From: Nitrososphaerota archaeon
GTDB lineage: Archaea; Thermoproteota; Nitrososphaeria; Nitrososphaerales; Gagatemarchaeaceae
NCBI GenBank assembly: GCA_027887005.1
Contig: JAPCJI010000010.1
Location: 1-43,303, forward strand
DNA: 43,303 nt
Reading direction: 5' to 3'
In this document: piece by piece, positions 8,116 to 10,984 of the stretch
Numbering within the stretch: the stretch's first letter is position 1
Layout: each line of letters opens with the position of its first letter
Made by a program: the position numbers and the translations under genes
Notes under the pieces: generated by a model
Database searches by the model: none
What the model saw: only the letters and a program-made list of their open reading frames with translations
Told to the model about the DNA's origin: nothing

Positions 8116-9066
8116 TCAGGCCTGCCGCAGCACTTCTACAGAATCGACTTTTCCGTCTCCGTCCTTGTCGGTCCCGCGTAGCAGGCATGAGTATTCGCCC
8201 GACCTGTACTTCTCGAAGAGCAGTGAGGCGTGGTTGCTGATGCCTATGATCGCGGCCTTGGTGCCCGCCCCGGTGAGGCCGGCCGCGAGGACGCAGGTCG
8301 CTTCCTTGTTCCAAGGGTTCCGGACCTTCTCCACCACGCAGTCGAGGTCCGAGCTGTAGGACCTCCCCCTTTCGTCGACGATCGAACTCCAGAACCCCTC
8401 CTGCTTGAACCGGAATCTGAGGTAGGGGTTGAGCTCCTCGGCGACGAGGTTTGTCCTAGGCCCCCCGACCACGATGAGGTTGGACCCCAGCAGCTTCTCC
8501 GCCTTGAGGTCCACGTCCAGCTTGACCGGGAAGCCAGTCGGTAGGGACACGAACTGTCCTAGGGCGAACCCCAGCTGGACTGCGTAGTGCCCGTCTCGCG
8601 CCTGGGTCCCGCTCGCGCCGTGCTGAAGTGGAGACCCCACCACTATCCAGCCGTCGAGCCTGCCGTCCATGACGAATTCCTGGAAGAAGTTCCCGAGGGA
8701 CTTGGACCTCCTTGCGGACTTCAGCGTGGGAATCGGCTCCCCCTTCACAGGGAACTCCACTGCATAGCCATCAGAAGCCAGGGCGAAGCGGTTGGCCACC
8801 CCTCCGCGAATCGATTGGCTGCCGACGCGGACTATCAGGCCTGCCCTCTCCAGCCTGCCCATGTGGTAGTAGACCGTCTGGTGATGCGTCTTAAGTGATC
8901 TGGCGACCTCCGCAGGGTACCTGGGGCCAGAGGCGAGTAGGACAAGGATCCTTTGGCCGAACTTCCCGGACGCTGCCTTGAAGGCGTCTGGCCGCTCTGA
9001 GACGAGGACTCGCTTGGCGGTCCTCTCGGACGCGTCGGGGTCGAAGAGGAATTCTTCCTTGTGCAA
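8116..9066 (-). CDS. Winged-helix regulator with S-layer-like C-terminal domain and EF-hand loop
   Basis: Predicted one-component transcriptional regulator of 316 residues. Residues 28-105 form an ArsR-like winged helix-turn-helix: FGQRILVLLASGP, then YPAEVARSLKTHHQTVYYHM as the recognition unit and a basic wing. Residues 135-295 resemble the C-terminal domain of archaeal S-layer proteins, with GWIVVGSP, RDGHYA and LIVVGGPRTNLVAEELN. Residues 300-311, DKDGDGKVDSVE, form a complete EF-hand calcium loop. No signal peptide or membrane segment is apparent, so it should be cytoplasmic. I start at TTG 9066, about 25 nt from a TATA-like element; the open frame upstream to 9459 is a shadow of glmS. 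What it senses is unknown; calcium or cell-envelope state is a guess. Confidence 0.75.
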   Translation of the reverse strand: MHKEEFLFDPDASERTAKRVLVSERPDAFKAASGKFGQRILVLLASGPRYPAEVARSLKTHHQTVYYHMGRLERAGLIVRVGSQSIRGGVANRFALASDGYAVEFPVKGEPIPTLKSARRSKSLGNFFQEFVMDGRLDGWIVVGSPLQHGASGTQARDGHYAVQLGFALGQFVSLPTGFPVKLDVDLKAEKLLGSNLIVVGGPRTNLVAEELNPYLRFRFKQEGFWSSIVDERGRSYSSDLDCVVEKVRNPWNKEATCVLAAGLTGAGTKAAIIGISNHASLLFEKYRSGEYSCLLRGTDKDGDGKVDSVEVLRQA

Positions 9067-9086
9067 CCACCCTTCGTGGCCGCGAC

Positions 9087-9103
9087 CACTAAAAAACGTT
9101 TTT
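9087..9103 (-). promoter_or_regulatory. Promoter of the regulator gene with a palindrome
   Basis: On the minus strand TTTTTTAGTG (9096-9087) is TATA-like, 21-30 nt from the TTG start of the regulator. The perfect 12-bp palindrome AAAAACGTTTTT (9092-9103) overlaps it and could be an operator for autoregulation. The divergent gap 9067-9217 otherwise holds the glmS promoter. Confidence 0.45.
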
Positions 9104-9186
9104 GCATGGTGGGATTCCTGTCTTGAGCGCTTCAGTTCGAAGCGTGCAAGGAAGTCCCTGCACGGTAAACTAAAGCCCTTGTCGGG

Positions 9187-9196
9187 ACTTAATACC
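9187..9196 (+). promoter_or_regulatory. TATA box of glmS
   Basis: ACTTAATACC ends 21 nt before the glmS GTG start, so the transcript is probably leaderless. Confidence 0.5.
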
Positions 9197-9217: not shown

Positions 9218-10984
9218 GTGTGCGGGATAATCGGTTGCGTGGCCGAGGAGCCTGTCGCCGGGATACTCCTTGACGGATTGAGGAGGGTGGAGTACAGGGG
9301 ATACGACTCGGCCGGAATGGCGACCATAGGCAACGGCAAGCTCAGGGTCAGGAAGGGAGCTGGGAGGATCAGCGAGATCGAGGGACGCAAGAAGCTCTCC
9401 GAGCTAGGCGGGAGCATCGGTATGGCCCACACCAGGTGGGCTACCCACGGCGGCGTCACCGACAGGAACGCCCACCCTCAGACGTCCTGCGGGGATACGG
9501 TGGCAGTCATCCACAACGGAATCATCGAAAACTACCTTCCACTGAAGAAGAGGTTGGGGGCGAAGGGGCACGCGTTCAAGAGCGAGACCGACACGGAGGT
9601 GATCGCCCATCTTATCGAGGACGAGTACAAGAAAGCCAAGGACCCCCTTGCGGCCACGGTCACAGCGACCAAGAAGCTGAAGGGACAGTATGCGATAGCG
9701 GTGATGTTCCAGGATAGGCCAGACGTCATCATCGGGGCCAGAAAGGATGCGCCCCTGGTCATTGGCATCGGGAACGGGAAGATGTTCATCGCAAGCGACG
9801 TCCTCGCATTCATCGAACACACGGACAGAACCATCTTCCTCGACAATCACGAGGCGGTGGAAATCACGAAGGACAGGGTGAAGATTGTGGGACCAGGAGG
9901 AAGGGAGGTCAGGCGCAAGCCCACCCAGGTCGCCTGGGAGCTTTCCGACCTCTCGAAGGCTGACTACGCGCACTACACCCTGAAGGAGATCCACGAACAG
10001 CCCCAGACGGTGGTCAGCGCGTCCGTGCAGGAAGCTGGAAAGATAGCTGAGTTCGCGGCGGCCATCAGGGGGGCGAAGTCGCTCTTCATCGTTGCCTCGG
10101 GGACCAGCTACCACTCGGGACTCCTGATGAAGTTCAGGCTCAACCAGGAAGCGGGCATAAGGTGCGACGCGGTGGTGGCAGGGGAGCTGCGCGAGAACTC
10201 CGCCTTCCTGATCAGGGGGTCGGTGGTTGTCGCGATTTCGCAGAGCGGTGAAACAGCCGACCTGCTGGAAGCGGTGAAAGTATCGAAGAAGAGGGGCGCG
10301 AAGGTGTTGTCAATCGTCAACGCTGGCGGGTCGACACTCGCCCGGGAGAGCGACCTGGTGCTGCTCCTGAACTGCGGACCCGAGGTGGGGGTAGCGGCCA
10401 CGAAGAGCTTCACTGCACAGGTTGTCGTCGCGAACCTAGTGGTGGACGCTGTCCTCGGCAAGAAGAGGTCGAACGGGGTGCAGGATCTCTCGGAGGGGGT
10501 GAAGAAGGCCCTCGAATGCGAGGACCAGATCAAGGAACTAGTGGCAAGGTACAAGGACAGGTCGGACTTTTACTTCGTCGCTCGGGGGTACAATAGTCCG
10601 GTCGCGCTGGAAGGGGCACTAAAGCTGAAGGAGCTCTCCTACATACATGCAGAGGGGATGCCGGCCAGCGAGCTGAAGCACGGGACCCTGGCGCTCATCG
10701 AGAAAGGGACCCCCGTGGTCGTGATCAACCCGTCGGGGGAGGCCCACGCTGACTCCCTGTCGGCGGCCGAGGAGTTGAAGGCAAGGGGGGCCGACGTCAT
10801 CGGGATATCGGACGTGAAGGACGATGTCTACAGGTACTTCGTTCAAGTGCCGAAGGTCCCGCCCAAGTTCACGCCAGTGGTGGAGGCGATTCCGCTGCAA
10901 CTCCTTGCCTATCATTTCGCGGTCGCCAAGAGGAACGACCCGGACTACCCGCGCAACCTCGCGAAGTCCGTCACTGTCAAGTAA
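9218..10984 (+). CDS. glmS: Glutamine-fructose-6-phosphate aminotransferase (isomerising)
   Basis: A 588-residue enzyme making glucosamine 6-phosphate from fructose 6-phosphate and glutamine, the entry to UDP-GlcNAc and glycan synthesis. The start GTG at 9218 is set by CGIIGCV: after Met removal, Cys becomes the N-terminal nucleophile of the class II glutaminase domain (residues 2 to about 220, with RRVEYRGYDSAG and HTRWATHGGVTDRNAHP). Two SIS domains follow, with ASGTSYHSG, ISQSGETADLLEA and the C-terminal NLAKSVTVK. The open frame upstream to 8978 has no family match. It is followed 37 nt later by the deoxyhypusine synthase-family gene. Confidence 0.96.
   Translation: MCGIIGCVAEEPVAGILLDGLRRVEYRGYDSAGMATIGNGKLRVRKGAGRISEIEGRKKLSELGGSIGMAHTRWATHGGVTDRNAHPQTSCGDTVAVIHNGIIENYLPLKKRLGAKGHAFKSETDTEVIAHLIEDEYKKAKDPLAATVTATKKLKGQYAIAVMFQDRPDVIIGARKDAPLVIGIGNGKMFIASDVLAFIEHTDRTIFLDNHEAVEITKDRVKIVGPGGREVRRKPTQVAWELSDLSKADYAHYTLKEIHEQPQTVVSASVQEAGKIAEFAAAIRGAKSLFIVASGTSYHSGLLMKFRLNQEAGIRCDAVVAGELRENSAFLIRGSVVVAISQSGETADLLEAVKVSKKRGAKVLSIVNAGGSTLARESDLVLLLNCGPEVGVAATKSFTAQVVVANLVVDAVLGKKRSNGVQDLSEGVKKALECEDQIKELVARYKDRSDFYFVARGYNSPVALEGALKLKELSYIHAEGMPASELKHGTLALIEKGTPVVVINPSGEAHADSLSAAEELKARGADVIGISDVKDDVYRYFVQVPKVPPKFTPVVEAIPLQLLAYHFAVAKRNDPDYPRNLAKSVTVK

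Follow-up and report, generated by a model that had tools for sequence, protein, structure and literature searches.

We consider it likely that the gene at positions 8116-9066 of the window (the whole 43,303-nt stretch of archaeal DNA analyzed here) encodes a one-component transcription regulator of amino-sugar synthesis, according to the model of protein domains, DNA element and effector proposed below. In this protein, a winged helix is fused to a domain of the type that anchors archaeal S-layer proteins, and its gene is read divergently from glmS (glucosamine-6-phosphate synthase). The best explanation of the locus was built on the domain make-up, the conservation, the gene linkage and a conserved element at both promoters, all of which were computed. 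What the regulator does is explained by the glmS locus and not by the S-layer link. The regulator family with its predicted target and site is well supported and apparently undescribed in the literature searched, where we also found no description of transcriptional control of glmS in archaea. The source genome is archaeal (1.6 Mb, 26 contigs, 96% complete), and the named relatives are Thaumarchaeota/Nitrososphaerales MAGs.

Table 1. Positions of the regulator gene, its protein parts, the promoter elements and glmS in the window.
Feature	Position	Strand	Remarks
Regulator gene, winged helix and S-layer-anchor-type domain	8116..9066	minus	316 aa, TTG start
Winged-helix DNA-binding core	8827..8952	minus	residues 39-80; HTH_20; archaeal ArsR-type structures 1uly, 2p4w
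S-layer-anchor-type alpha/beta domain	8119..8709	minus	about residues 120-316; separate prediction, 9fsa match
GSPxxHG loop, candidate ligand-site motif	8617..8637	minus	residues 144-150; P146, H149, G150 in 51/51 loci
Ca-type loop DKDGDGKVDSVE	8134..8169	minus	residues 300-311, between two predicted strands
26-bp palindromic element of regulator promoter, ACCATGCAAAAACGTTTTTTAGTGGT	9085..9110	minus	contains 12-mer AAAAACGTTTTT at centre; enriched in relatives
TATA-like stretch of regulator	9090..9096	minus	24-30 nt before TTG, inside the 26-bp element; from sequence
Second, imperfect element copy AGCGTGCAAGGAAGTCCCTGCACGGT	9141..9166	plus	glmS side, 52-77 nt before glmS start
TATA-like stretch of glmS, CTTAATAC	9188..9195	plus	from sequence, putative
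glmS, glutamine--fructose-6-phosphate transaminase	9218..10984	plus	588 aa, GTG start, divergent neighbor; TIGR01135 690 bits, cut-off 418

Regulator gene and winged helix

A winged-helix regulator had been proposed in the preliminary description for 8116-9066. The frame runs from 9066 to 8116 on the minus strand, and the winged helix was borne out by Pfam HTH_20, which matches residues 39-80 with 35.7 bits (cut-off 27; E 8e-9). For HTH_5, the window protein is under the cut-off and the orthologues L079 and L086 are over it. Several orthologues have a GTG or ATG start codon at about the same place. The predicted winged helix was superposed on the archaeal ArsR-type regulators PH1932 (1uly; Z 13.2, rmsd 1.4, 84 residues aligned) and Phr (2p4w; Z 12.1, rmsd 2.9, 81 aligned), which share this part, but the C-terminal domain of the regulator is unrelated to theirs as far as seen. 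All Cys residues are located in the C-terminal half; since the winged helix contains none, it carries no ArsR-type metal thiols, and the ArsR/SmtB metalloregulator model NF033788 gave 16.6 bits, under its cut-off of 55. The regulator is not a member of the TrmB family either (PF01978, 18.7 bits, under the cut-off of 25.6), and the TrmB effector domain was not among the profile matches.

No export signal was seen: the highest mean hydropathy of 12-residue stretches starting within residues 1-30 was 0.07. Neither a secretion signal nor a lattice region as in S-layer proteins was found, the N-terminus being a helix-turn-helix and not hydrophobic. The earlier view of a cytoplasmic regulator with an S-layer-type domain is supported.

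C-terminal S-layer-anchor-type domain

In the full-length model (pLDDT 64.9), the winged helix dominated the fold search, and the C-terminal domain was therefore predicted separately (pLDDT 77.5, pTM 0.81). In a Foldseek search against the PDB, the top match was the S-layer protein of Methanococcus voltae, namely its anchor domain (9fsa; E 2.2e-4; Z 11.8, rmsd 3.0, 126 aligned), to which the domain is related. In the fold comparison, N-terminal domains of GH115/GH67 glucuronidases and BcsB tie with 9fsa. These were tried as proof of sugar binding and dropped, because a shared fold (Z about 7-12) shows no function; the solved relatives of the domain show no bound sugar, and fold relatives do not tell the ligand. 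For a profile of 44 C-terminal domains, the sole match at E<=0.001 was again the M. voltae S-layer protein 9fsa (E 1.1e-5). In the predicted structure, the C-terminal domain has the fold of the archaeal S-layer anchor domain. The S-layer likeness claimed for the C-terminus held for the fold and for the profile of 44 domains and also for orthologues, which pass S_layer_C (PF05124) with 28.3 bits in L079 and 39.7 bits in L086 (cut-off 23.9), but the window protein alone gave a weak match of 16.8 bits, under this cut-off.

According to the available part of PMC11410804, the M. voltae anchor comprises aa 24-75 and 484-576, i.e. the two ends of a secreted lattice protein, and dimerizes. It resembles the regulator domain in fold and sequence, including the shared motifs IVVGS, LD, GGPxxN and AG..T. 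There, however, the anchor is split and secreted, whereas the regulator domain is continuous, cytoplasmic and fused to a winged helix.

The PF05124 search of 151 genomes of the phylum yielded 22 matches in 21 genomes, 19 of them over cut-off and all of these in 315-340 aa frames of the regulator; a PF05124 match was also found in M. jannaschii, among 14 control genomes. In the source phylum, Thermoproteota, the domain occurs almost only in the regulator. Two of the 22 matches lie outside it, both under cut-off, and one of these frames looks like a DEAD/H-box helicase by eye. The source genome has no second copy of the domain: its profile matches the regulator alone, and PF05124 finds nothing else at E<=0.001. 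These results speak against the earlier idea that the protein senses unassembled surface protein, in which the domain would pair with its like in cytoplasmic S-layer proteins and report the state of secretion or assembly. To this idea we give hardly any probability, despite the relationship to an anchor that dimerizes in the S-layer (PMC11410804, available part) and the fact that GlmS feeds glycan synthesis.

Conserved residues and Ca-type loop

Residue conservation was counted over 51 distinct orthologous loci. P146, H149, G150, G201, P203, N206, N213, A262, G263 and T269 are invariant, while D158 is kept in 49/51 and D184 in 50/51 loci. Most of these residues are located at strand ends or helix starts in the domain model, where alpha/beta folds commonly bind ligands. 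No counterpart of the PHG motif, of DGHY (mostly kept in the regulators) or of the Ca-type loop was seen where 9fsa aligns. A candidate ligand site is proposed because of the position of the conserved residues and the lack of PHG and DGHY in 9fsa. The invariant polar motifs beyond those of the M. voltae anchor also argue against a C-terminal domain that is an enzyme or a dimerization module without effector binding, which would make the protein a constitutive regulator. We regard such a protein as unlikely, although dimerization is the role of the M. voltae anchor domain (PMC11410804, available part) and glycosidases and BcsB share the fold in their N-terminal domains.

The loop at residues 300-311 satisfies the 12-residue EF-hand pattern DxDxDG, as had been claimed, but strands flank it at residues 292-299 and 309-315 in both the full-length and the domain-alone model. 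The flanking helices of an EF-hand were not found in these models; with a predicted strand on either side, the loop does not form the helix-loop-helix of an EF-hand. In profile searches, calmodulin-type proteins matched over the loop only (best 0.029 and 0.017); a kinship to EF-hands was dropped in favor of chance similarity of a short Ca loop. We take the loop to be closer to the Ca loops of FG-GAP/integrin type hairpins. The S-layer-like domain had been described as ending in this loop; the loop follows the Pfam S_layer_C match and has no place in the part of the M. voltae anchor that was matched. The Ca-binding residues are retained in orthologues in part: D300, D304 and D308 are invariant (51/51) and position 302 is D or N in 50/51, but the acid at position 12 is kept in only 40/51. 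Because the loop is invariant, calcium binding is plausible from the sequence. It is a further step to assume that the loop senses cytoplasmic calcium and thereby switches DNA binding. This calcium-sensing role, also suggested earlier, found no support and appears very improbable to us: the retained aspartates would fit it, yet position 12 varies, a loop joining two predicted strands suits a structural ion, and the locus speaks for amino sugars rather than calcium.

Distribution and linkage to glmS

The preliminary description did not extend to the divergent glmS or to the promoter region that the two genes share; the conserved divergent glmS is the strongest clue at this locus. The full-length regulator profile matches 55/300 genomes of the phylum, nearly all in single copy. 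With the domain profile (E<=0.001), 128/250 genomes of the order were matched, including most of family f1 and the large family f4; among the matches listed, family f2 has no match of regulator strength and only a weak one in G268. A 655-aa frame of family f3 (L144:3538-5505, minus strand; G336) contains the same domain with a hydrophobic start and without the winged helix, and is perhaps a surface protein.

In 35 of the 51 distinct loci, glmS is the immediate divergent neighbor of the regulator. These loci belong to f1, f4, f5, f17, f21, f31, f37 and f41 or are named Thaumarchaeota loci. In six further loci an insert separates the divergent glmS from the regulator (0.56-3.7 kb between the starts), and in one glmS lies 3.8 kb away on the same strand as the regulator. 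The immediate divergent neighbor in 4/51 loci is a glmU-type nucleotidyltransferase/acetyltransferase gene, one of which was checked (TIGR03991, 347 bits, over the cut-off of 225). All four (L078, L077, L082, L083) come from family f30. The four genomes of this family have either no glmS match or a weak one, which suggests a different route to UDP-GlcNAc. Neither glmS nor a glmU-type gene is found next to the regulator in 5/51 loci, and two of these five genomes, G016 and G024, are without glmS match. In L084 and L086, from genomes without glmS match, the regulator follows a gene for a zinc-type alcohol/sugar dehydrogenase on the same strand; the target of the regulator may have changed in these genomes.

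Since glmS itself is common (269/300 genomes), its presence alone says little, but its place does. Among held-out loci, glmS was divergent in 24/28, 22 times within 240 bp and twice at about 750-765 bp (start to start), and was not found in the fetched stretch of the other 4/28. The other flank of the regulator varies by lineage and includes genes for ribosomal proteins, DUF371 and a MobA-like enzyme. In many distant loci, a cluster of 18, the gene after the regulator on its own strand is the DUF371 gene (L091:5263-5694, minus strand; PF04027, 165.6 bits). The divergent glmS genes of L005 (1595-4909, minus strand) and L006 (2393-5002, minus strand) contain inteins (Intein_splicing, 72.1 and 70.5 bits) directly after GMAHC of the glutaminase domain, with a LAGLIDADG domain in L005.

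Conserved promoter element

A palindromic 12-mer, AAAAACGTTTTT, had been taken as a sign of autoregulation. As an operator it was dropped because it is not conserved among relatives. In the genome it occurs a single time, and a search for it in other promoters was thereby negative. Autoregulation is nevertheless supported by the conserved 26-bp element around it. In relatives, the outer arms of this element, ACCR-N18-YGGT, persist at the fixed spacing of 18 while the centre drifts. Its copy at the regulator is the only exact match to its pattern in the source genome. The placing of the TATA-like stretch before the regulator agrees with the position of archaeal TATA boxes. A location near -26/-27 is given in the available part of PMC4158304. 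On the glmS side, L002 and L011 have an element copy at about the same place as the window.

At the training loci, from which the pattern had been read off so that the statistics are not independent, the exact element was found in 7/11 near and 7/40 distant loci (shuffle means 0.16 and 0.28), and with <=1 mismatch in 11/11 and 22/40 (shuffle means 3.2 and 5.6). The independent test was carried out on held-out promoters. There, 8/28 contained the exact element against a shuffle mean of 0.14 (maximum 3 in 500 shuffles) and 19/28 contained it with <=1 mismatch against 3.47 (maximum 9 in 500 shuffles); no shuffle (0/500) reached either count, and spacing 18 was the peak among spacings 8-28. With <=1 mismatch, the element is missing in 18/40 distant training loci and 9/28 held-out loci. 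Regarding a wider regulon, the source genome has seven matches with <=1 mismatch on both strands versus five for the reversed control, and no further targets are claimed.

Genomes with separated regulator and glmS

Whole genomes were scanned with the pattern ACCAYTAT-N10-ATARTGGT. In G321, where regulator and glmS are 3.8 kb apart, it has two exact sites, of which the first lies at the regulator promoter and the second 113 bp ahead of the glmS start; a weaker site is 57 bp ahead of glmS. The two copies before glmS (G321:C8:50934-51015) are 56 bp apart, the same as the window copies (9085 and 9141); this equal spacing may point to cooperative binding. In G310 (2.9 kb apart), an exact site lies at the regulator and a single-mismatch site 58-83 bp before glmS; with R/Y arms, all three sites with <=1 mismatch are at the regulator and glmS promoters. 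No site was found at glmS of G353 and G237 with this pattern, and G304 has only a 2-mismatch site 178 bp before glmS, with a count below control (4 vs 8). In nine other genomes, which were partly picked for a known regulator-side site, 10/15 distinct sites are at regulator or glmS promoters and the remaining five are no more than the reversed control gives (7). The sites at glmS in G310 and G321 first came to light with the scan.

These data also bear on the possibility that the regulator acts on itself alone or on other genes, with the adjacency to glmS as a relic of gene order. Operator-like sites stay at the regulator in L119 and L125, where glmS has moved, and some genomes lack any site at glmS. 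Against this, the glmS linkage is kept in eight family labels despite a changing other flank, and G310 and G321 carry elements at glmS promoters that lie far from the regulator. We judge a relic quite unlikely and retain control of glmS as the preferred reading.

Proposed mechanism and comparison with known systems

From this evidence, we infer DNA binding, the sign of control, dimerization, metal and ligand. The ArsR-type winged helix, probably dimeric, would bind the 26-bp palindrome. Through the copy over the TATA region of its own promoter, the regulator would repress itself; autorepression is expected because the element covers the TATA-like stretch 9090-9096. Through the second copy, located a short way upstream of the glmS TATA region, it would probably activate or tune glmS, activation being the likelier sign because the copy at 9141-9166 lies upstream of the TATA-like stretch 9188-9195. 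The C-terminal domain, with GSPxxHG, mostly DGHY and the Ca-type loop, would most likely dimerize and bind a small effector. Our best guess for the latter is a metabolite of the amino-sugar pathway (GlcN-6-P, GlcNAc-P or UDP-GlcNAc); such an intermediate is an economical guess because most lineages pair the regulator with GlmS and another pairs it with a GlmU-type enzyme.

In bacteria, glmS is controlled by the glmS ribozyme, GlmR/YvcK and NagR-type regulators. These act on the same step as proposed for the archaeal regulator, the first of amino-sugar synthesis, by means of different molecules. The archaeal sugar regulators of the TrmB family are similar in combining a winged helix-turn-helix with a C-terminal effector domain and, in the available part of PMC4158304, in a palindromic site that represses or activates depending on where it lies with respect to BRE/TATA: archaeal sites over or downstream of BRE/TATA repress and upstream sites activate, as in the case of TrmBL1/Tgr.

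Significance

The product of GlmS is the amino sugar source of UDP-GlcNAc and surface glycans, and the finding offers a named regulator, a DNA site and a target that are directly testable. It also connects the fold of S-layer anchors with a regulatory domain inside the cell, a link with a bearing on how archaeal S-layer anchors arose. Tentatively, and with more doubt than confidence, we propose that the S-layer anchor domain has a cytoplasmic, metal-stabilized, ligand-binding counterpart, namely an amino-sugar sensor controlling UDP-GlcNAc synthesis in several lineages of Thermoproteota. If true, the S-layer anchor could derive from an intracellular sugar-sensing domain that became secreted and was interrupted by the lattice domains.
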